Below, one piece after another: positions 54,878 to 64,000 of a stretch of 64,000 nt of DNA. The DNA comes from Mesorhizobium sp. NZP2077. GTDB lineage: Bacteria > Pseudomonadota > Alphaproteobacteria > Rhizobiales > Rhizobiaceae. The notes beneath the pieces were generated by a model. It did not search any database. It saw only the letters and a program-made list of their open reading frames with translations, and had not been told where the DNA came from. Position 1 is the stretch's first letter; each line of letters begins with the position of its first letter. A program made the translations under genes and the position numbers. The stretch lies in assembly GCF_013170805.1 (NCBI RefSeq), contig NZ_CP051293.1, positions 5,896,001-5,960,000 of the forward strand, read 5' to 3'.

Positions 54878-55480
54878 ATGGTCCGATCCTCCCTAGCCGT
54901 CCTGGTGATCGATGAAAATCGCATCCGCGCCTCGATCATCGAGGCCGGCCTGCGCGAGGCCGGCCATCAGCGGGTCACGGTCATCCATGACGTGACCGGC
55001 ATTGCGCGACGGATCGCCGAAATCGAGCCTGACGTCATCGTCATCGATCTCGAAAATCCCAACCGCGACATGCTCGAAAACATGTTCCAGCTGTCGCGCG
55101 CCGTGAAGCGTCCGATCGCCATGTTCGTCGACCGCTCCGACCAGGCCTCGATCGAGGCGGCGGTCGATGCCGGCGTGTCCGCCTATGTCGTCGACGGGCT
55201 CAGGCAAGAGCGCGTCAAGCCGATCCTCGACATGGCGGTCAGCCGCTTCAATGCCTTCTCACGCATGGCGCGTGAACTGGAAGAGGCGCGCAGCGAGCTC
55301 GAGAGCCGCAAGGTGATCGATCGCGCCAAGGGCATTCTTATGAAGTCGCGCGGCCTCTCCGAAGAGGCGGCCTACACGCTGCTGCGCAAGACCGCGATGA
55401 ACCAGAACCGCAAGATCAGCGATATCGCCCAGAGCCTGGTGACTGCCGCCGGGCTGCTCGGACCGGCGGAGGACGAATGA
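54878..55480 (+). CDS. nasT: NasT, ANTAR-domain antiterminator
   Basis: This 200-residue protein has a pseudo-receiver domain (residues 1-120, VLVIDENRIRASIIEAGLR start) and a C-terminal ANTAR RNA-binding domain (about 130-195: RKVIDRAKGILMKSRGLSEEAAYTLLRKTAMNQNRKI). In rhizobia and Paracoccus NasT binds a two-hairpin leader in the nitrate-assimilation mRNA and prevents termination; NasS holds it inactive until nitrate/nitrite binds. The matching hairpins are seen before nrtA. The stop overlaps the nasS start. Confidence 0.92.
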   Translation: MVRSSLAVLVIDENRIRASIIEAGLREAGHQRVTVIHDVTGIARRIAEIEPDVIVIDLENPNRDMLENMFQLSRAVKRPIAMFVDRSDQASIEAAVDAGVSAYVVDGLRQERVKPILDMAVSRFNAFSRMARELEEARSELESRKVIDRAKGILMKSRGLSEEAAYTLLRKTAMNQNRKISDIAQSLVTAAGLLGPAEDE

Positions 55481-56721
55481 GCATGGGCGCCGAGCACCAG
55501 ATCACCGCCGGCTTCATGCCGCTTTTCGACAGCGCCGTGCTGGTGGCCGCAAGCGAGTTGGGCTTCGCCGCACGCGAAGGCATTGAGCTGACGCTGCACC
55601 GCGAGACGTCCTGGGCCAACATCCGCGATCGCATCGCCATCGGCCACTTCGATCTCGCGCATATGCTGGGACCGATGCCGCTCGCCTGCAATCTCGGGCT
55701 GACGCCGCTCGCTTCCGAAACCATCGTGCCGTTCTCGCTCGGGCTCGGCGGCAATTGCGTCACCATCTCCAACGCGGTGTGGGACGGCATGGCGGCGCAT
55801 GGCGGTGAAGCCGATCTCGATCCGGCGCGTGCCGGGGCAGCACTTCATGCGCTCATTCGCGAGCGCGCTGCAACCGGTGGCGAGCCGCTTCGCTTTGCCG
55901 TCGTGCATCCGCATTCCGGGCACAATTACGAACTGCGCTACTGGCTCGCCGCCTGCGGTATCGATCCCGACCGCGAAATCGAGATCGTCATCGTGCCACC
56001 GCCCTTCATGGCCGACGCGCTGGCCACTGGGCGCATCGACGGCTACTGCGTTGGTGAACCCTGGAACAGCGCTGCGGTCGCCGCCGGCACCGGCCATATC
56101 GTCACCGTCAAGGCACTGTTGTGGAAGAACAGCCCGGAGAAGGTGATCGGCGTGCGCAAGGCCTGGGCGGACGAGAACCCCGAGGCTCTGGCGGCATTGC
56201 TGCGCGCGCTGCATCATTCGGCACGCTGGTGCCAGGATCCAGCCAACCACGCAGAATTGGCAGTTGTGATGGCGCAGCCCGGCTTCCTCGGTTTGCCGCC
56301 CGCGGTGCAGATGCCGATCCTGACCGGCCATCTCCGATTGGGCGGCGGGGCGGAGCTGGAGATCGACGACTTCTTCCTACCTTTCGACAAGGCGGCGAAT
56401 TTTCCGTGGAAGAGCCATGCGCTGTGGTTCTACACGCAGATGGTGCGCTGGGGTCATGTCGCGCACACGCCTGAGAACCTCGCCATAGCGCGCGAATGCT
56501 ATCGGCCTGACCTCTACCGCTCGGCGCTGAAGCCGCTCGGCGTGGCGCTTCCCGGCGCCAATGCGAAGGTTGAGGGCGCGCTCAAGATCGCCACCGCGGT
56601 CGGCGCGACCGGGGCCGGCCTGGTGCTTGGTCCCGACGGTTTCTTCGACGGCCAGATCTTCGATCCAGACGAGATCGACGCCTACATCGCGTGCCAGAAA
56701 TCGGCCCACGCGGAAGCCTGA
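55477..56721 (+). CDS. nasS: NasS, cytoplasmic nitrate/nitrite sensor
   Basis: This 414-residue protein is of the NrtA/CmpA substrate-binding type but has no signal peptide, so it stays in the cytoplasm (MSMGAEHQITAGFMPLFDSAVLVAASELG). This, and the ATGA overlap with nasT, identifies it as NasS, the nitrate- or nitrite-binding inhibitor of NasT. Compare the exported NrtA encoded 330 bp downstream, which carries a Tat signal. Confidence 0.9.
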   Translation: MSMGAEHQITAGFMPLFDSAVLVAASELGFAAREGIELTLHRETSWANIRDRIAIGHFDLAHMLGPMPLACNLGLTPLASETIVPFSLGLGGNCVTISNAVWDGMAAHGGEADLDPARAGAALHALIRERAATGGEPLRFAVVHPHSGHNYELRYWLAACGIDPDREIEIVIVPPPFMADALATGRIDGYCVGEPWNSAAVAAGTGHIVTVKALLWKNSPEKVIGVRKAWADENPEALAALLRALHHSARWCQDPANHAELAVVMAQPGFLGLPPAVQMPILTGHLRLGGGAELEIDDFFLPFDKAANFPWKSHALWFYTQMVRWGHVAHTPENLAIARECYRPDLYRSALKPLGVALPGANAKVEGALKIATAVGATGAGLVLGPDGFFDGQIFDPDEIDAYIACQKSAHAEA

Positions 56722-56738: not shown

Positions 56739-56753
56739 TTGTGCATTGCACAA
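56739..56753. promoter_or_regulatory. Palindrome suited to NtrC, upstream of nrtA
   Basis: TTGTGCATTGCACAA is a perfect 15-bp palindrome with the TGCAC half-site of NtrC enhancers. Its centre is about 152 bp upstream of the predicted sigma-54 transcription start, typical for an enhancer. A weaker partial GTGC-containing repeat follows (around 56758-56765). Confidence 0.65.
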
Positions 56754-56871
56754 AAATTGTGCGTGCGTCGGCTCTAGTGAACAATCTTTGGCCTGCTCAC
56801 TATAGTGCCCGGCATGTCGTCGATAGACACACATCGCTGCTTTCATTGATGTTTTTCGCTTCTCAGCAAAC

Positions 56872-56887
56872 TGGCATGGTTCCTGCT
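56872..56887 (+). promoter_or_regulatory. Sigma-54 (-24/-12) promoter of nrtA operon
   Basis: TGGCATGGTTCCTGCT matches TGGCAYR-N4-YTGCW, with the invariant GG (56873-56874) and GC (56885-56886) separated by 10 bp. Transcription would start near 56898, giving an untranslated leader of about 150 nt that contains the NasT-target hairpins. It implies NtrC control by nitrogen starvation. Confidence 0.8.
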
Positions 56888-56922
56888 TCGAAATAATCAG
56901 GCCCTTCACGGGTCACGGAACA

Positions 56923-57017
56923 GGCGTCCAATGACGGGCGCCACAGGCAAAGCTGCCGCTCAGGTCAAGACGCGCTCCCGGTCTCTCGGGCGCGAAGACC
57001 TGGCCGGCGGCTTTTTT
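56923..57017 (+). promoter_or_regulatory. NasT (ANTAR) target hairpins plus intrinsic terminator in nrtA leader
   Basis: Hairpin P1 has a 7-bp stem (56923-56929/56936-56942) with hexaloop AATGAC; hairpin P2 has GGC/GCC (56946-56948/56955-56957) with hexaloop AAAGCT, three nt after P1. Both loops carry A at position 1 and G at position 4, the ANTAR signature. The right arm of P2 (56955-56959) is also the left arm of a terminator stem that continues with CAGGTC/GACCTG (56961-56966/56997-57002) and GCCGC/GCGGC, followed by six T residues (57012-57017). P2 formation, stabilised by NasT, would exclude the terminator. Confidence 0.85.
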
Positions 57018-57048
57018 GTTTTGGAATCGCGTTCAACCGGAGACGACG

Positions 57049-58377
57049 ATGAAGAAGACGATGAAGAATTGGATCGGAACGGGAACATCCCTCAAGGATG
57101 TGACGCGTCGCGATTTTCTGGTCAGCAGCGCCATGACGGCAGGCCTGTTCGTGGCGGCCCGCAAGCTTTTCCCCTCCGGCGCCTATGCCGCCACCGCCGC
57201 TCCGGAAGTCACCGGCGCCAAGCTCGGCTTCATTGCGCTGACCGATGCCGCCCCGCTTATGATTGCCAAGGAGAAAGGGCTGTTCGCAAAATTCGGCATG
57301 CCCGATGTCGAGGTGCTCAAGCAGGCATCCTGGGGCGCGACGCGCGACAATCTGATGCTTGGCGGTGCGGCCAACGGTATCGACGGCGCCCATATCCTGA
57401 CGCCGCTGCCTTACCTCATGCACACCGGCAAGGTGACGCAGAACAACCAGCCGATGCCGATGGCGATCGTGGCGCGGCTCAACTACGACTGCCAGGGCAT
57501 TTCGGTCGCGCAGGAATATGCCGGCACCGGTGTCGGCCTTGATGCCTCGAAGCTGAAGGATGCCTTCGCCGCCAAGAAGGCGGCCGGCAAGGAAATCAAG
57601 GCCGCCATGACCTTCCCGGGCGGCACGCACGACCTCTGGCTGCGCTACTGGCTGGCCGCCGGCGGCATCGATCCCGACAAGGACGTCTCGACCATCGTCG
57701 TGCCGCCGCCGCAGATGGTGGCCAACATGAAGGTCGGCAACATGGACGTCTTCTGCGTCGGCGAGCCGTGGAACGAGCAGCTCGTCCACCAGGGCGTCGG
57801 CTTCACCGCCGCAACCACGGGCGAGTTGTGGAAGGGCCATCCGGAAAAGGCGCTCGGCCTGCGCGCCGAGTTCATCGAGAAGAACCCGAACGCCACCAAG
57901 GCGATCCTGATGGCCGTCATGGAAGCCCAGCAATGGTGCGAGGCCAAGGAGAACAAGGACGAGATGGCCGCCATCATCGGCAAGCGGCAATGGATGAACG
58001 TGCCCGTCGCCGACATCATCGGCCGCCTCAAGGGCGACATCAATTATGGCAACGGCCGCGTCGCCTCTGGCACCGACCTCTACATGAAGTTCTGGAAGGG
58101 CGGCGTCTCCTACCCGTTCAAGAGCCACGACAGTTGGTTCCTCGCTGAAAACATCCGCTGGGGCAAATTCGCGCCGACCACCGACATCAAAGCGCTGGTC
58201 GATCAGGTCAACCGCGAGGATCTGTGGCGCGAGGCGGCCAAGGATCTCGGCGTGGCCGCCGCCGACATTCCGGCATCATCGTCGCGCGGCGTCGAGACCT
58301 TCTTCGACGGCAAGGTCTTCGATCCGGCCAACCCGTCCGCCTATCTCGACAGCCTGAAGATCAAGGCATCGGCATAA
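57049..58377 (+). CDS. nrtA: NrtA, periplasmic nitrate-binding protein
   Basis: This 442-residue protein has a Tat signal (DVTRRDFLVSSAMTAGLFVAA) and then the NrtA/CmpA/SsuA-like binding domain with LGFIALTDAAPLMIAKEKGLF. It delivers nitrate (and perhaps nitrite) to the NrtB permease. The ATG at 57049 follows GGAG at about 8 nt; an earlier ATG at 57016 lies in the terminator tail. First gene of the antiterminated operon. Confidence 0.92.
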   Translation: MKKTMKNWIGTGTSLKDVTRRDFLVSSAMTAGLFVAARKLFPSGAYAATAAPEVTGAKLGFIALTDAAPLMIAKEKGLFAKFGMPDVEVLKQASWGATRDNLMLGGAANGIDGAHILTPLPYLMHTGKVTQNNQPMPMAIVARLNYDCQGISVAQEYAGTGVGLDASKLKDAFAAKKAAGKEIKAAMTFPGGTHDLWLRYWLAAGGIDPDKDVSTIVVPPPQMVANMKVGNMDVFCVGEPWNEQLVHQGVGFTAATTGELWKGHPEKALGLRAEFIEKNPNATKAILMAVMEAQQWCEAKENKDEMAAIIGKRQWMNVPVADIIGRLKGDINYGNGRVASGTDLYMKFWKGGVSYPFKSHDSWFLAENIRWGKFAPTTDIKALVDQVNREDLWREAAKDLGVAAADIPASSSRGVETFFDGKVFDPANPSAYLDSLKIKASA

Positions 58378-58436: not shown

Positions 58437-59327
58437 ATGTCGATCCAGGCTATCGAGGATACCAAGGTGAAGGCATTCCCCGCCAAACCGGCCGAGGTGA
58501 TCGCCTTCACCGCCAAGGCGCGGCGCCGCTTCGAGCCTATGGCAATCGCCGGCAAACTGGCGAGCACGCTGGTGCCGCCGATCATCGTCATCGCCCTCAT
58601 GCTCGTCGTCTGGCAGGTCGCCTGCTCGTCGCCCACATCGAGCCTGCCGCCGCCAAGCCAGGTGTGGAACGAGGCCTACGATCTGATCGCGCATCCGTTC
58701 TTCAACAACGGCCCGCAGGATATCGGCCTGGCTTGGCGGGTGCTGATCTCGCTGCAACGCGTCGCCATCGGCTTTGGCCTGGCGGCGATCGTCGGCGTGG
58801 CGCTCGGCGCACTGGTCGGCCAGTCGATCTGGGCGATGCGCGGCCTCGATCCGGTGTTCCAGATCCTGCGCACCGTGCCGCCGCTCGCCTGGCTGCCGTT
58901 GTCGCTGGCGGCGTTCCGCGATTCCAGCCCGTCGGCGCTGTTCGTCATCTTCATAACCTCGATCTGGCCGATCATCATCAACACCGCCGTTGGCGTGCGC
59001 AACATCCCGCAGGATTACCGCAACGTCGCCCGCATCCTGCGCCTCAACCCGTTCGAGTTCTTCGTCAAGATCATGGTGCCGGCCGCAGCGCCCTACATCT
59101 TCACGGGCCTGCGCATCGGCATCGGCCTGTCCTGGCTCGCCATCGTCGCCGCCGAAATGCTGACGGGCGGCGTCGGCATCGGCTTCTTCATCTGGGACGC
59201 GTGGAACTCGTCGCGGCTGCCCGACATCATCGTCGCGCTCGCCTATATCGGCGTCACCGGCTTCTGCCTCGACCGGCTGGTCGCGGCGGTCGGCGTCTTC
59301 GTCACCCGCGGCACAACGGCAAAGTGA
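58437..59327 (+). CDS. nrtB: NrtB, nitrate ABC importer permease
   Basis: This 296-residue permease of the NrtB/SsuC class has about six helices and an EAA-like loop (NVARILRLNPFEFFVKIMVPAAAPYIFTGLRIGIG). The ATG at 58437 is 59 bp after nrtA; GGAG is present upstream. Confidence 0.92.
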   Translation: MSIQAIEDTKVKAFPAKPAEVIAFTAKARRRFEPMAIAGKLASTLVPPIIVIALMLVVWQVACSSPTSSLPPPSQVWNEAYDLIAHPFFNNGPQDIGLAWRVLISLQRVAIGFGLAAIVGVALGALVGQSIWAMRGLDPVFQILRTVPPLAWLPLSLAAFRDSSPSALFVIFITSIWPIIINTAVGVRNIPQDYRNVARILRLNPFEFFVKIMVPAAAPYIFTGLRIGIGLSWLAIVAAEMLTGGVGIGFFIWDAWNSSRLPDIIVALAYIGVTGFCLDRLVAAVGVFVTRGTTAK

Positions 59328-59337
59328 GGAAAGCGCC

Positions 59338-60135
59338 ATGACGGCCTATCTGAAACTCGACCATATCGACAAATCCTTCGCCCGTGGCGGCCAGGTCAGT
59401 GAGGTTCTGAGGGATATCAGGCTGACCATCGACAAGGGCGAATTCGTCTCCATCATCGGTCACTCTGGCTGCGGCAAGTCGACCTTGCTCAACCTGATCG
59501 CCGGCCTGACCAATGTGTCCGCCGGCGCCGTGCTGCTCGAGGACAAGGAAGTCGACAGCCCCGGACCCGAGCGTGCCGTGGTGTTCCAGAACCACTCGCT
59601 GCTGCCATGGCTGACCGTCTATGAAAACATCAACCTTGCGGTGTCGAAAGTCTTCGGCCGTTCCAAGACCAGGGCCGAGCGGCATGACTGGATCATGCGC
59701 AATCTCGACCTTGTGCAAATGGCGCATGCCAGGGACAAGCGCCCAGCCGAGATTTCGGGCGGCATGAAGCAGCGCGTCGGCATCGCCCGGGCGCTCGCCA
59801 TGGAGCCGAAGATCCTGCTGCTCGACGAGCCGTTCGGCGCGCTCGATGCGCTGACCCGCGCCCATCTGCAGGACGCGGTAATGGACATCCATTCCAGGCT
59901 TGGCTCGACGACCATCATGATCACCCATGATGTCGACGAGGCGGTGCTTTTGTCCGATCGCATCGTCATGATGACCAACGGTCCGGCGGCGACCATCGGC
60001 GAAGTGCTTGCCGTGCCGCTGGCGCGGCCGCGCCGGCGCGTCGAGCTCTCCTCCGACCGCACCTTCCTGCGTTGCCGCGAGGCGGTGCTGAAGTTCCTCT
60101 ACGAACGCCACCGCTTCGTCGAAGCCGCGGAGTAG
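59338..60135 (+). CDS. nrtC: NrtC/D-type nitrate ABC importer ATPase
   Basis: This 265-residue ATPase has Walker A (GHSGCGKST), signature (ISGGMKQRVGIARAL) and Walker B (ILLLDEPFGALD). It lacks the extra solute-binding domain fused to cyanobacterial NrtC, so it is a simple NrtD-like ATPase. GAGGAAAGCGCC lies before the ATG; it overlaps closely with nirB (4 bp gap). Confidence 0.9.
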   Translation: MTAYLKLDHIDKSFARGGQVSEVLRDIRLTIDKGEFVSIIGHSGCGKSTLLNLIAGLTNVSAGAVLLEDKEVDSPGPERAVVFQNHSLLPWLTVYENINLAVSKVFGRSKTRAERHDWIMRNLDLVQMAHARDKRPAEISGGMKQRVGIARALAMEPKILLLDEPFGALDALTRAHLQDAVMDIHSRLGSTTIMITHDVDEAVLLSDRIVMMTNGPAATIGEVLAVPLARPRRRVELSSDRTFLRCREAVLKFLYERHRFVEAAE

Positions 60136-60139
60136 ACCA

Positions 60140-62590
60140 ATGACCGAAAAACTCGTCATCATCGGCAACGGCATGGCCCCCGGGCGCATGCTGGAGCACC
60201 TCCTGGAACAGGCGCCGGGCCGCTACGCCGTCACCATCTTCAACGCCGAGCCGCGGGTCAATTACGACCGTATCATGCTGTCGCCGGTCCTGTCGGGCGA
60301 AAAGGCCTATGAGGAAATCATCATCCACGGCGACGGCTGGTACATCGCCAACAACATCACCCTCTACAAGGGCCACAAGATAACAGCCATCGACCGGGCG
60401 GCGAAGACCGTCACCTCCGATCACGGCGTCATCGAGCCTTACGACAAGCTCGTCATCGCCACCGGCTCGGTGCCGTTTATCATCCCGGTGCCTGGCCACA
60501 ATCTGCCGGGCGTGCTCACCTATCGCGATCTCGACGACGTCCAGGCCATGATGCTGGCTGCCCAGTCCAGGGCCAAGGCCGTGGTCATCGGCGGCGGCCT
60601 GCTGGGACTGGAGGCGGCTGCCGGCCTCAACGCGCAAGGCATGGACGTCACCGTACTGCATGTCATGCCTACGCTGATGGAGCGCCAGCTCGATCCTGCC
60701 GCCGGCTATCTGCTGCAGCGCGCCGTCGAACAACGCGGCATCAAGGTCATCACCAAGGCCAACACGCAGGCGATCACGGGCAACGGCAAGGTCGAGCAGG
60801 TGGAACTTGCCGACGGCACCATCATTCCAGCGACGCTGGTGGTCATGGCCGTCGGCATCAGGCCGAATTCGGCGCTGGCCAAAGAAGCGGGCATCGCCGT
60901 CAACAGAGGCATCGTCGTCGATGCCGGCATGCGCAGCAACGATCCCGACATCTACGCGCTCGGCGAATGCGCCGAGGTCAACGGCATGGTCTATGGGCTG
61001 GTGGCACCGCTCTACGAGATGGCCCGCGTCGTCGCCTACCAGCTTGCCGGCAACGAGACGGCCGCCTTCGTCCACATGGACACGCCGACCAAGCTCAAGG
61101 TCACCGGCATCGACCTGTTCTCGCTCGGCGACTTCGCCGAGGGCGAGGACCGCCAGGAGATCGTGCTGCGCGACGCCGCGGCCGGGGTCTACAAGCGCCT
61201 GGTGCTCAAGGACGACCGCATCATCGGCACCGTGCTTTATGGCGAGACGGCGGACGGCGCCTGGTTCAGCGATCTCAAGAAGAAGCAGACCGACATTTCG
61301 CAAATGCGCGATACGTTGATCTTCGGCCAGTCCTACCAGGGGGGTGCCCCGCTGGACCCTATGGCGGCCGTTGCAGCCTTGCCGGATGATGCGGAAATCT
61401 GCGGCTGCAACGGCGTCTGCAAGGGCAAGATCACAGGTGCGATCACGGGCAAGGGACTGACCTCGCTCGACGATGTCAGGGCGCACACCAAGGCGTCGGC
61501 CTCCTGCGGCTCCTGCACCGGGCTGGTCGAGAAGCTTATGGTGCTGACCATCGGCGACAAGTACAACCCGGCCGCCGTGCAACCGATGTGCGGCTGCACC
61601 ACGCTCGGCCATGACGAGGTGCGCCGGCTGATCATCGCCAAGCGTCTGAAGACCATTCCCGCCGTCATGCAGGAACTGGAATGGACGACCTCCTGCGGCT
61701 GCGCCAAATGCCGGCCGGCGCTCAACTACTACCTCGTCTGCGACTGGCCGGACGACTATGCCGACGACTACCAGTCGCGCTTCATCAACGAGCGCGTCCA
61801 CGCCAACATCCAGAAGGACGGCACCTATTCGGTGGTGCCGCGCATGTGGGGCGGGGTGACCAATGCCGCCGAACTGCGCGCCATCGCCGATGTCGTCGAC
61901 AAGTTCGAGATCCCGATGGTGAAAGTCACCGGCGGCCAGCGCATCGATATGCTGGGCATCCGCAAGGAGGACCTGCCGGCGGTGTGGGCCGATCTCGGCC
62001 AGGCCGGCTTTGTCTCCGGCCATGCCTATGCCAAGGGCCTGCGCACGGTGAAGACCTGCGTCGGCTCCGACTGGTGCCGCTTCGGCACGCAGGATTCGAC
62101 GGGTCTCGGCATCCGCATCGAGAAATTCATGTGGGGCTCGTGGACCCCGGCCAAGGTCAAGATGGCGGTGTCGGGCTGCCCGCGCAACTGCGCCGAAGCG
62201 ACCTGCAAGGATGTCGGTGTCATCTGCGTCGACAGTGGCTACGAGATCCACTTCGCCGGCGCCGCCGGCCTCGACATCAAGGGCACCGAAGTGCTCGGCA
62301 TGGTCAAGACCGAGGACGATGCGCTCGAACATATCGTGGCGCTGACGCAGATGTACCGCGAGCAGGGCCGCTATCTCGAGCGCATCTACAAATGGGCCAA
62401 ACGCATCGGCATCCCGGAGATCAAGCGCCAGATCATGGACGACGATGCCAAGCGCAAGGCCTATTACGAGCGCTTCGTCTTCAGCCAGAAATTCGCCCAG
62501 GTCGACCCATGGTCGGAACGCGTGTCCGGCAAGGACAAGCACGAGTTCCGGCCAATGGCTTCGGTCGGCTTCGCGCAGGCGGCGGAGTAG
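60140..62590 (+). CDS. nirB: Assimilatory nitrite reductase large subunit
   Basis: The 816-residue enzyme has FAD/NADH pyridine-nucleotide oxidoreductase domains (first ~400 residues), a BFD-like [2Fe-2S] domain (CGCNGVCKGK...CGSCTG, about 418-462) and a C-terminal sirohaem/[4Fe-4S] domain with the Cys cluster in TCVGSDWCRFG and SGCPRNCAEATC (about 636-695). It reduces nitrite to ammonium with NAD(P)H. It starts 4 bp after nrtC. Confidence 0.95.
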   Translation: MTEKLVIIGNGMAPGRMLEHLLEQAPGRYAVTIFNAEPRVNYDRIMLSPVLSGEKAYEEIIIHGDGWYIANNITLYKGHKITAIDRAAKTVTSDHGVIEPYDKLVIATGSVPFIIPVPGHNLPGVLTYRDLDDVQAMMLAAQSRAKAVVIGGGLLGLEAAAGLNAQGMDVTVLHVMPTLMERQLDPAAGYLLQRAVEQRGIKVITKANTQAITGNGKVEQVELADGTIIPATLVVMAVGIRPNSALAKEAGIAVNRGIVVDAGMRSNDPDIYALGECAEVNGMVYGLVAPLYEMARVVAYQLAGNETAAFVHMDTPTKLKVTGIDLFSLGDFAEGEDRQEIVLRDAAAGVYKRLVLKDDRIIGTVLYGETADGAWFSDLKKKQTDISQMRDTLIFGQSYQGGAPLDPMAAVAALPDDAEICGCNGVCKGKITGAITGKGLTSLDDVRAHTKASASCGSCTGLVEKLMVLTIGDKYNPAAVQPMCGCTTLGHDEVRRLIIAKRLKTIPAVMQELEWTTSCGCAKCRPALNYYLVCDWPDDYADDYQSRFINERVHANIQKDGTYSVVPRMWGGVTNAAELRAIADVVDKFEIPMVKVTGGQRIDMLGIRKEDLPAVWADLGQAGFVSGHAYAKGLRTVKTCVGSDWCRFGTQDSTGLGIRIEKFMWGSWTPAKVKMAVSGCPRNCAEATCKDVGVICVDSGYEIHFAGAAGLDIKGTEVLGMVKTEDDALEHIVALTQMYREQGRYLERIYKWAKRIGIPEIKRQIMDDDAKRKAYYERFVFSQKFAQVDPWSERVSGKDKHEFRPMASVGFAQAAE

Positions 62591-62637: not shown

Positions 62638-62656
62638 TCAAAGAAGGGTGGAGCAC

Positions 62657-62986
62657 ATGAACTGGATCGCCATTGGCTCCCTGTCTGACATCCCGCGCCG
62701 TGGCGCGCGCTGCGTCGCCACGCCGGAAGGCAAGGTCGCGGTCTTCCGCACTCAGGACGATCAGGTCTACGCCATCGACGATCACTGCCCGCACAAGGGC
62801 GGCCCGCTCAGCCAGGGCATCGTGCACGGTACGGCGGTGACCTGTCCCCTACACAATTGGGTCATCTCGCTCGAGACAGGCAAGGCGCTTGGTGCCGACG
62901 AGGGCGCGGTGCGCACCGTCCCGGTCAAGGTCGAGGGCGAGCACCTGTTCCTGGCGCTGGAAGCGCTGGCCAGCCGCGCCGCCTGA
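62657..62986 (+). CDS. nirD: Assimilatory nitrite reductase small subunit
   Basis: This 109-residue Rieske-type small subunit has the [2Fe-2S] ligands CxH (DHCPHKGG, about 38-40) and CxxH (CPLHNW, about 58-61), both intact; many NirD proteins have lost them. It partners NirB. The ATG at 62657 has AAGGG and GGAG upstream, right after the palindromic repeat. Confidence 0.9.
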   Translation: MNWIAIGSLSDIPRRGARCVATPEGKVAVFRTQDDQVYAIDDHCPHKGGPLSQGIVHGTAVTCPLHNWVISLETGKALGADEGAVRTVPVKVEGEHLFLALEALASRAA

Positions 62987-62988
62987 AC

Positions 62989-64000
62989 ATGGAGATCGAC
63001 GCGGCACGCGAGGTGAGGACCACCTGCCCCTATTGCGGGGTGGGCTGCGGCGTGCTGGCGAAGGTCGCCGCGGAAGGGCAAGTGTCCGTCCGCGGCGACC
63101 CCGATCATCCCGCGAATTTCGGCCGGCTCTGCTCCAAGGGCTCCGCTCTGGCCGAGACGATCGGCCTTGAGGGCAGGCTGATCCATCCCGAAATCCACGG
63201 CCGCCGGACAGGGTGGAACGAGGCGCTCGACCTCGTTGCATCGACCTTCTCGCAAACCATCGCCGAGCACGGCCCGGATGCGGTCGCTTTCTATGTCTCG
63301 GGCCAGTTGCTGACTGAGGATTATTACCTCGCCAACAAGCTGATGAAGGGCTTCATCGGCTCGGCCAACATCGACACCAATTCGCGCCTGTGCATGGCTT
63401 CGTCCGTCGCCGGCCACCGCCGCGCATTCGGCGCCGACACGGTGCCGGGCACTTACGAGGATCTGGAACTCGCCGATCTCATCGTGCTGGTCGGCTCCAA
63501 CCTCGCCTGGTGCCACCCCGTGCTCTACCAGCGCATCGCCGCGGCCCGGGAAAAGCGGCCGGAGATGAAGATCGTGCTCATCGACCCGCGCCGCACCATG
63601 ACCGCTGATATCGCCGACATGCATCTGGCGATCGCGCCGGATGGCGACGTCGCTTTGTTCACCGGGCTGCTCGGCTGGCTCGGCCAGCACAACGCGCTCG
63701 ACCGAGGCTACATCACCGCTCACACGACCGGCTTCGGGCAGGCGCTTTTCGCCGCCTCGGCGCTCGACCTTGCCGGAATAGCTGCCGCGACGGGCCTCAG
63801 TGAGGATGAACTCACCCGTTTCTACAGCCTGTTCGCCGCCACCGCAAAGACAGTGACCGTCTACAGCCAAGGAGTGAACCAGTCGTCGTCAGGCACCGAC
63901 AAGGTCAACGCCATCATCAACTGTCATCTCGCCACCGGCCGCATCGGCAAGCCGGGAGCCGGCCCGTTCTCGGTGACCGGCCAACCCAACGCCATGGGTG
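62989..64000 (+). CDS. nasA: Assimilatory nitrate reductase catalytic subunit (cut by window end)
   Basis: Partial: 337 codons up to the window edge. The N-terminus has the [4Fe-4S] motif CPYCGVGCGVLAK...LCSKG (about 13-50) followed by the molybdopterin-binding domain (SRLCMASSVAGHRRAFG). It reduces nitrate to nitrite using the molybdenum cofactor. ATG is 2 bp after the nirD stop (TGAACATG). The remaining two-thirds, including the expected C-terminal domains, lie outside. Confidence 0.93.
   Translation, partial: MEIDAAREVRTTCPYCGVGCGVLAKVAAEGQVSVRGDPDHPANFGRLCSKGSALAETIGLEGRLIHPEIHGRRTGWNEALDLVASTFSQTIAEHGPDAVAFYVSGQLLTEDYYLANKLMKGFIGSANIDTNSRLCMASSVAGHRRAFGADTVPGTYEDLELADLIVLVGSNLAWCHPVLYQRIAAAREKRPEMKIVLIDPRRTMTADIADMHLAIAPDGDVALFTGLLGWLGQHNALDRGYITAHTTGFGQALFAASALDLAGIAAATGLSEDELTRFYSLFAATAKTVTVYSQGVNQSSSGTDKVNAIINCHLATGRIGKPGAGPFSVTGQPNAMG

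Follow-up and report, generated by a model that had tools for sequence, protein, structure and literature searches.

The question raised by this locus is how the short stretch of DNA between nasS and nrtA governs the nitrate assimilation genes behind it. The window, that is, the whole 64,000-nt stretch from 5896001 to 5960000 of G000:C1, carries, all on the plus strand, nasT, nasS, the leader, nrtA, nrtB, nrtC/D, nirB, a nirD-like gene and a nitrate reductase gene, in this order. nasT (54878-55480) encodes an antiterminator with a receiver-like domain (PF00072, 33.8 bits) and an ANTAR RNA-binding domain (PF03861, 80 bits); its stop is overlapped by nasS (55477-56721), which encodes a nitrate/nitrite-sensor-like protein of the NMT1_2 (NrtA-like) family (PF13379, 251.5 bits) and was named from family and position. 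An earlier, sequence-only reading had placed nasT-nasS just upstream of the leader, and the PF03861/PF00072 and PF13379 matches bear this out, the gene of a receiver-ANTAR protein adjoining that of an NrtA-like sensor, as in a NasS-NasT pair. The first gene after the leader, nrtA (57049-58377), encodes a nitrate-transporter substrate-binding protein (NMT1_2; PF13379, 356.3 bits), and is followed by the nrtB permease gene (58437-59327; PF00528, 97.9 bits), the nrtC/D nitrate ABC ATPase gene (59338-60135; TIGR01184, 333.8 bits, above cut-off), nirB for the nitrite reductase large subunit (60140-62590; TIGR02374, 898.6 bits, above cut-off), an ORF named from position and sequence as a nirD-like small subunit (62648-62986) and an assimilatory nitrate reductase gene (62887-63999; PF00384 and PF04879). 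The last of these runs off the window and its true start is not fixed, the searched stretch starting within the nirD-like ORF.

The window NasT is 100% identical to NasT of Mesorhizobium carmichaelinearum, which points to a Mesorhizobium as the probable source, and it aligns by sequence to the structures Rv1626, EutV 6wsh and NasR 4akk. The EutV residues described as touching RNA are K143, 147, R168, M172, N173, R175 and R177 (PMC8934654). With a numbering offset of 2 inferred from the alignment, K145, R170, M174 and N175 of NasT are identical to K143, R168, M172 and N173 of EutV. R149 is an Arg at EutV residue 147, taken as Lys, and K179 represents R177 changed to Lys; at N177, EutV R175 is replaced by Asn, and this contact residue is not kept. 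By this alignment, NasT retains most of the putative RNA-contact residues checked. The same genome encodes a second ANTAR protein (AmiR_N + ANTAR, AmiR-like; locus L002, G000:C1:678333-681485), whose gene adjoins genes for an AmiC-like binding protein and ABC permease-like proteins.

The leader contains two small hairpins in tandem and a terminator, all on the plus strand. P1, GGCGTCC[AATGAC]GGGCGCC (56923-56942, loop AAUGAC at 56930-56935), was read from the sequence and the minimum free energy (MFE) fold. The 3-nt linker ACA, between 56942 and 56946, separates it from P2, the predicted antiterminator, GGC[AAAGCT]GCC (56946-56957, loop AAAGCU at 56949-56954). The intrinsic terminator (56949-57017, -39.4 kcal/mol) shares the loop and right arm of P2. 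Its left arm (AAAGCTGCCG C TCAGGTC) lies at 56949-56966 and its right arm at 56997-57011, followed by six T at 57012-57017. Thus the two adjacent hairpins with A1/G4 in both loops, and the doubling of the P2 right arm as part of the terminator left arm before a run of six T, were found as the sequence-only reading had described them. The leader thereby combines tandem hexaloop hairpins, A1/G4 in both loops, a P2 exclusive with the terminator and an ANTAR protein in the same genome, which are features of an ANTAR dual-hexaloop target. Upstream, near the expected transcript start, a small 5' hairpin, P0 (GGCCC-TTCAC-GGGTC, 56900-56914), is predicted, the loop of which is not A1/G4 in the window. 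The predicted MFE structure of 56890-57020 consists of P0, P1 and the terminator (-64.6 kcal/mol, z -5.24), and none of 200 shuffles was as good.

The full signature was defined as P1 of at least 5 bp with A1/G4, P2 of at least 3 bp with A1/G4 and a terminator with at least five T whose arm overlaps P2 and has at least 8 bp. It occurs once on both strands of the window and in none of 20 dinucleotide shuffles of it; with the A1/G4 demand lifted, there are three occurrences in the window and eight in the 20 shuffles together. An Rfam scan of the whole window gave no gathering-level match. A covariance model built from relatives and the window (R1) found the leader as the sole strong match in the whole 7.69-Mb genome (87.3 bits, E 4.5e-17), together with its antisense shadow. 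With a second model, R2, the leader scored 62 bits and the next of 49 matches 23.9 bits (E 0.005). Further NasT targets in this genome were accordingly rejected as candidates, one leader alone being a strong match with either model.

As a hexaloop hairpin P2 has 3 bp, the minimum for an ANTAR dual-hexaloop target RNA, and without protein it is predicted to form a 4-bp tetraloop hairpin, GGCA[AAGC]UGCC. A competing register, CAG[GCAAAG]CUG, is weaker in the window (-1.0 against -2.8 kcal/mol). This register, which the automatic loop-free procedure picked in many mesorhizobia, was rejected as the functional P2 for its weakness in the window and its absence where the P2 arms are AGC/GCT. The P1-P2 spacing is 3 nt in the window, with some uncertainty in the exact stem ends, and the linkers of relatives are short too, in a search permitting just 0-9 nt.

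For a comparative analysis, loci around nasT were collected from the best 80 of 531 named genome contigs and from genomes of the same family; L004-L032 were not counted among the leaders, being too short or duplicating longer loci. A rule demanding P1, P2 and a T run after nasS, with the loops left free, was obeyed by 86 of 120 loci (L033-L152) and not by 34; two of the 86 (L120 and L126) are actually of a spacer type described below. Removal of near-identical leaders left 72, among which P1 shows A1 in 70 and G4 in 70, and P2 shows A1 in 68 and G4 in 69. The homologous leaders thus conserve both loops as well as the overlap of P2 with the terminator, the very check that the earlier reading had proposed. 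In the P1 loop, position 2 is A in 68 of 72, nearly as conserved as A1 and G4, and positions 3 (T38/C27/G5/A2) and 5 (A39/G27/T4/C2) vary. A1 and G4 of P2 have pairing partners in the terminator as well, so that their conservation does not by itself prove recognition by a protein, and in leaders of the window's type the P1 loop is the cleaner test of the hexaloop signature.

Covariation was assessed in an alignment (A1) of the window with 68 of these leaders, L048 and L147 (wrong place picked) as well as L120 and L126 having been dropped. In P1, four of seven pairs changed on both sides, in 23 cells (a cell number reached in 0 of 500 shuffles and a pair count reached in 20 of 500). P2 is 100% paired in the 69 leaders, with both-side changes in 15 cells (0/500 shuffles), all in the outer pair, the other two pairs being invariant; slid by -3 columns, it is still 93% paired, without double changes. 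The terminator changed on both sides in 101 cells (0/500 shuffles), its pair count of 7 being reached by 304 of 500 shuffles. The third base of the P2 right arm has two partners, the P2 left arm in one fold and the terminator right arm in the other. This shared-base triplet is G-C-G in 50 of the 69 leaders, A-U-A in 14 and something else in five (A-U-G, G-U-G, G-C-C, G-C-A and one gap). The left-arm letter needs at least three changes on the NasT protein tree, although three may represent one gain and two losses. This three-way covariation is direct comparative evidence that the P2 and terminator folds are both under selection, and it upholds the earlier claim that the two are mutually exclusive. 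Outside the two hexaloop hairpins and the terminator base the leader sequence is variable. To judge from these alignments, the switch evolves as a unit across relatives.

At the position of P0, a hairpin of at least 4 bp is present in 53 of 54 leaders against 68% in shuffles, and one of at least 5 bp in 31 of 54 against 32%, a modest excess. In some relatives, such as L008, L015, L062, L067, L076 and L094, the P0 loop is A1/G4. P0 was rejected as a third ANTAR hairpin, such loops occurring in some relatives only and the excess over shuffles being modest.

A sigma54-type -24/-12 promoter element, TGGCATGGTTCCTGC (56872-56886, plus strand), was detected by motif match ahead of P1. It is the single match to TGGCAYN5YTGC in the window, where 0.91 are expected by chance. 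In 53 of 68 relatives a comparable element precedes P1 by 44-62 nt; 200 shuffles gave 0.22 on average and 2 at most. The sequence-only reading had called the switch complete; P1, P2 and the terminator are indeed all present, and the conserved sigma54-type promoter should be added to them. An NtrC-like palindrome, TGCAC-N7-GTGC (56747-56762, plus strand, motif match), is weak evidence alone because the window holds two matches against 0.81 expected; of 68 relatives, 15 have such a palindrome 140-215 nt ahead of P1. The sigma54 and NtrC motifs matched here are general consensus sequences. The fixed spacing of the promoter suggests a second, NtrC-type gate on the leader. The switch would thus resemble a compact AND gate, combining nitrogen limitation via sigma54 with nitrate via NasT, in a rhizobium-like soil bacterium.

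The promoter also bears on the simplest alternative, namely that hairpin and T run only terminate nasTS transcription in the ordinary way and that the hexaloops are accidental. The structure does start about 230 nt after the nasS stop and is a strong terminator. However, a promoter-like element stands between nasS and P1 in those 53 of 68 relatives; P1, which lies outside the terminator, keeps A1/G4 and covaries; and changes in the shared base are matched both in P2 and in the terminator. Moreover, the M. alhagi leader (L041/G086) lies some 2.4 kb downstream of nasT, preceded by extra sequence and followed by an MFS-type gene. An ordinary nasTS terminator is therefore very improbable.

Slightly less probable still is control by leader-peptide attenuation or at translation instead of ANTAR antitermination. 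An ATG in the P1 loop does open a 203-aa frame through the terminator, and an added translational step has been proposed for Paracoccus (PMC5424462). This ATG, however, needs U at loop position 3; the start codon is not conserved, because just 38 of the 72 leaders have it there (27 have C, 5 have G and 2 have A), and the terminator is conserved. Leader-peptide attenuation was rejected on the lack of conservation of the P1-loop ATG.

NasT was detected at E <= 1e-10 in 73 of 151 genomes of the family. R1 leader matches at E <= 1e-5 were present in 47 of the 73 NasT-positive and 0 of the 78 NasT-negative genomes (Fisher 1.3e-20), a comparison in which the cut-off was chosen after the list had been seen and R1 shares training leaders with some of the searched genomes. 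At 0.01, the number of genomes with leader matches rises to 51, including one, G024 (E 1.6e-4), without a NasT match. The position of the M. alhagi leader, about 2.4 kb after nasT, explains one miss. A riboswitch sensing nitrate or another metabolite directly, without NasT, would account for a structured leader in cis before a transporter operon with no Rfam family at gathering level, but it is the least probable reading, and nearly negligible, given the variable sequence beyond the hexaloop hairpins and terminator base and the presence of NasT in all 47 genomes with leader matches at E <= 1e-5.

Second strong leader copies were found before a second nitrate-type ABC transporter (L195 in G064 and L196 in G124) and before a nitrate-reductase-like gene (L197 in G081), the genes being named from translations. 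Weak leader matches away from nasS (L198 in G014, L199 in G057 and L200 in G024) share a sigma54-like element, and contain hairpins such as GGTCC-AGAGG-GGACC and then a P1-like hairpin; G024 is the genome without a NasT match.

Sequence, covariation and genome coupling establish the anatomy of the leader, its conservation, the mutual exclusivity of its two folds and its coupling to nasT. Taken together, it is very likely that the nrtA leader acts as a switch for NasT-dependent transcription antitermination, with the sigma54-type promoter driving it. The window element is a well-supported new ANTAR dual-hexaloop antiterminator under NasT control, with a well-precedented mechanism: Paracoccus NasT has been reported to bind the nasA leader RNA, with nitrate or nitrite dissociating NasS-NasT (PMC3795266), the dual-hairpin ANTAR antiterminator has been described (PMC3369931), and NasT systems are reported to use it as well (PMC7496416). 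In the Mesorhizobium switch, NasT binding, nitrate release and NtrC control would follow these precedents from other organisms. Under nitrogen limitation, NtrC would activate the promoter at 56872, and the nascent RNA would fold P0, P1 and then P2. Without free NasT, the upper terminator helix would form and, once RNA polymerase was at about 57010, P2 would be displaced by the 8-10 bp at the terminator base, and transcription would end at the U run. Binding of nitrate or nitrite by NasS would release NasT, the ANTAR domains of which would bind the A1/G4 hexaloops, keep P2 closed and thereby prevent the terminator from forming its base, allowing the polymerase to read into nrtABC-nirBD-nitrate reductase.

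Step-wise MFE folding from 56895 predicted P1 together with P2, in its 4-bp tetraloop form, at 3' ends 56958-56970 and 56998-57006. The upper terminator helix is predicted to be present by 57002, and at 57010-57014 the terminator base has displaced P2. With the 3' end at 56974-56994, a different structure is predicted, in which P1 is open and P2 adopts the CAG/CUG register. The sequence-only reading had NasT holding P1 and P2 together. In these energy predictions P1 is the same in both end states, which means that NasT has in effect to protect P2 from displacement by the last 8-10 bp. That reading was right on the anatomy and very probably on the mechanism.

Several features count against the switch mechanism: the 3-nt linker, by analogy with eutP, the 3-bp P2 with its competing register, the transient fold that opens P1, and the conservation of P1 loop position 2 almost to the level of A1 and G4. 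In the E. faecalis eut genes the P1-P2 spacing is reported as 5-12 nt, 3 or 14 nt being impaired, and cutting the eutP linker to 3 nt made induction drastically lower (PMC3369931). In Paracoccus, the level of the nasABGHC transcript was equally high with glutamate and with nitrate, and regulation at a translational step was proposed (PMC5424462). NasT hairpins are predicted for narK and bjgb of B. diazoefficiens, two genes that are nonetheless elevated when nasT is mutated (PMC6759348), and the presence of hairpins therefore does not guarantee activation by NasT.

The short-linker form is missing from many Rhizobium/Agrobacterium-type loci. Among 38 other loci examined under a loop-blind rule, 26 carry GAC-N6-GTC and then a T run, and all 26 of these P2 loops keep A1 and G4. 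These spacer-type loci lie among L103-L149 (for example L113, 1960-2088, minus strand), P1 being mis-chosen in six of the 26 rows (L103, L105, L124, L130, L142 and L149). The rule gave no spacer-type leader in the other 12, which comprise L102 and L119 (window-type), L041 (behind extra sequence), L122 (spacer-type by eye) and eight more (L059, L137, L138, L139, L143, L144, L148 and L152). In 20 aligned spacer-type leaders the P1 loops are likewise A1/G4, and the predicted terminator helix starts at G4 of P2. Because A1 of P2 is thus outside that helix, it provides a cleaner test than P2 of the window. The linker measures 28-39 nt (20 measured), and 18 of the 20 linkers fold a hairpin of their own with at least 6 bp, a feature of 8% of shuffles; the RNAalifold consensus of these 20 leaders (alignment A3) did not contain the spacer hairpin, probably because this stretch is poorly aligned. 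A 20-nt linker extension was reported to abolish antitermination by EutV (PMC8934654), and the spacer branch must therefore space its hairpins by folding or obey other rules. Just upstream of the short-linker leader of L119 (1958-2047, minus strand), a remnant of a spacer-type P1 and spacer hairpin was seen by eye, an arrangement which suggests that leader types were swapped or fused.

R2 misses most narK and spacer-type leaders tried, and is therefore a model of the window's leader type only. The Rfam narK RNA, RF03032, for which Weinberg 2017 is reportedly the source, aligned to two of four spacer-type loci tried (L113, 28.5 bits, and L109, 27.2 bits, both below gathering), with the spacer hairpin as one insertion. 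The RF03032 consensus starts with the sigma54-like GGCaC...UUGC and ends in CGACAAAGACGUCGC, and this end reads as a second A1/G4 hexaloop hairpin, left unpaired in the Rfam model. RF03032 was found in 21 of 398 Pseudomonadota genomes, 16 over gathering, and 30 of the 36 matches listed were examined as loci L153-L182. A first rule for P2 landed on hairpins of the terminator; with the fixed closing-pair rule used in its place, P2 shows A1 in 27 of 30 loci and G4 in 29 of 30, and a P2-overlapping terminator is present in 28 of 30. The P1 loops show A1 in 26 of 30 and G4 in 26 of 30; the rule mis-sets P2 in L172 and P1 in L159, L160, L163 and L182. The sigma54 pattern is present in 28 of 30 loci. 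An ANTAR gene is present in 21 of 21 RF03032 genomes and in 134 of 377 others (Fisher 1e-9, with kinship ignored and 16 of the 21 from one family, f44), and in at least eight of the 21, fewer than 250 nt separate the end of an ANTAR domain from the narK RNA that follows it. The RF03032 narK RNA hence appears, from its consensus and loci, to consist of a sigma54 promoter and an ANTAR dual hairpin with an unannotated P2.

It is rather likely that many Pseudomonadota nitrate leaders form one class of sigma54 promoter, ANTAR P1/P2 and terminator. This class would include RF03032, its second hairpin having been missed, and a Rhizobium/Agrobacterium-type spacer branch in which a folded spacer brings the hexaloops within reach of NasT, the spacing then depending on three-dimensional shape and not on the number of nucleotides. 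Should RF03032 be an ANTAR target, a function would be assigned to an orphan RNA family; the spacer-hairpin leaders, for their part, allow the ANTAR spacing rule to be tested directly. No paper linking the narK RNA with ANTAR was found in a search that did not cover the RF03032 authors' own text or the Rfam entry; as far as the literature searched shows, these two extensions look new, and they are the more novel part compared with the window element itself.

None of the papers listed by a literature search on Mesorhizobium, nasT and nitrate is about the window's leader, judging by titles and the starts of abstracts. Among the closest known systems, RF03032, like the window, has a sigma54-like start, P1, P2 with A1/G4 and a terminator, its P1 loop being mostly AACGGC; the window is not a member of that family (18.6 bits, E 0.57, against a gathering score of 43.2). 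Bradyrhizobium diazoefficiens likewise has a rhizobial NasT with leader hairpins, on nosR, nirA, coxS, narK and bjgb, and these targets include an assimilatory nitrite reductase gene, as does the window operon (PMC6759348). Its target genes differ from those here and are described under denitrification (PMC6759348); in the window's genome, one leader was found as a strong match. In Paracoccus denitrificans, the nasA leader is reported to have nasT-nasS directly upstream, intergenic leader hairpins and a nitrate assimilation operon behind, in the same manner as here (PMC3795266, PMC5424462). Unlike in Paracoccus, the window leader feeds an ABC transporter operon, nrtABC-nirBD-nitrate reductase. 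The sigma54-type promoter of the window stands at fixed spacing just before P1, and the NtrC site reported for Paracoccus lies before nasT (PMC3795266, PMC5424462). EutV on the E. faecalis eut leaders and NasR on Klebsiella nasF likewise act on two A1/G4 hexaloop hairpins, of which the second overlaps an intrinsic terminator (PMC3369931, PMC7496416, PMC8934654). The linker of 3 nt in the window compares with 5-12 nt in the E. faecalis eut genes (PMC3369931), and, unlike EutV and NasR, the regulator in the window is the two-protein pair NasS-NasT.
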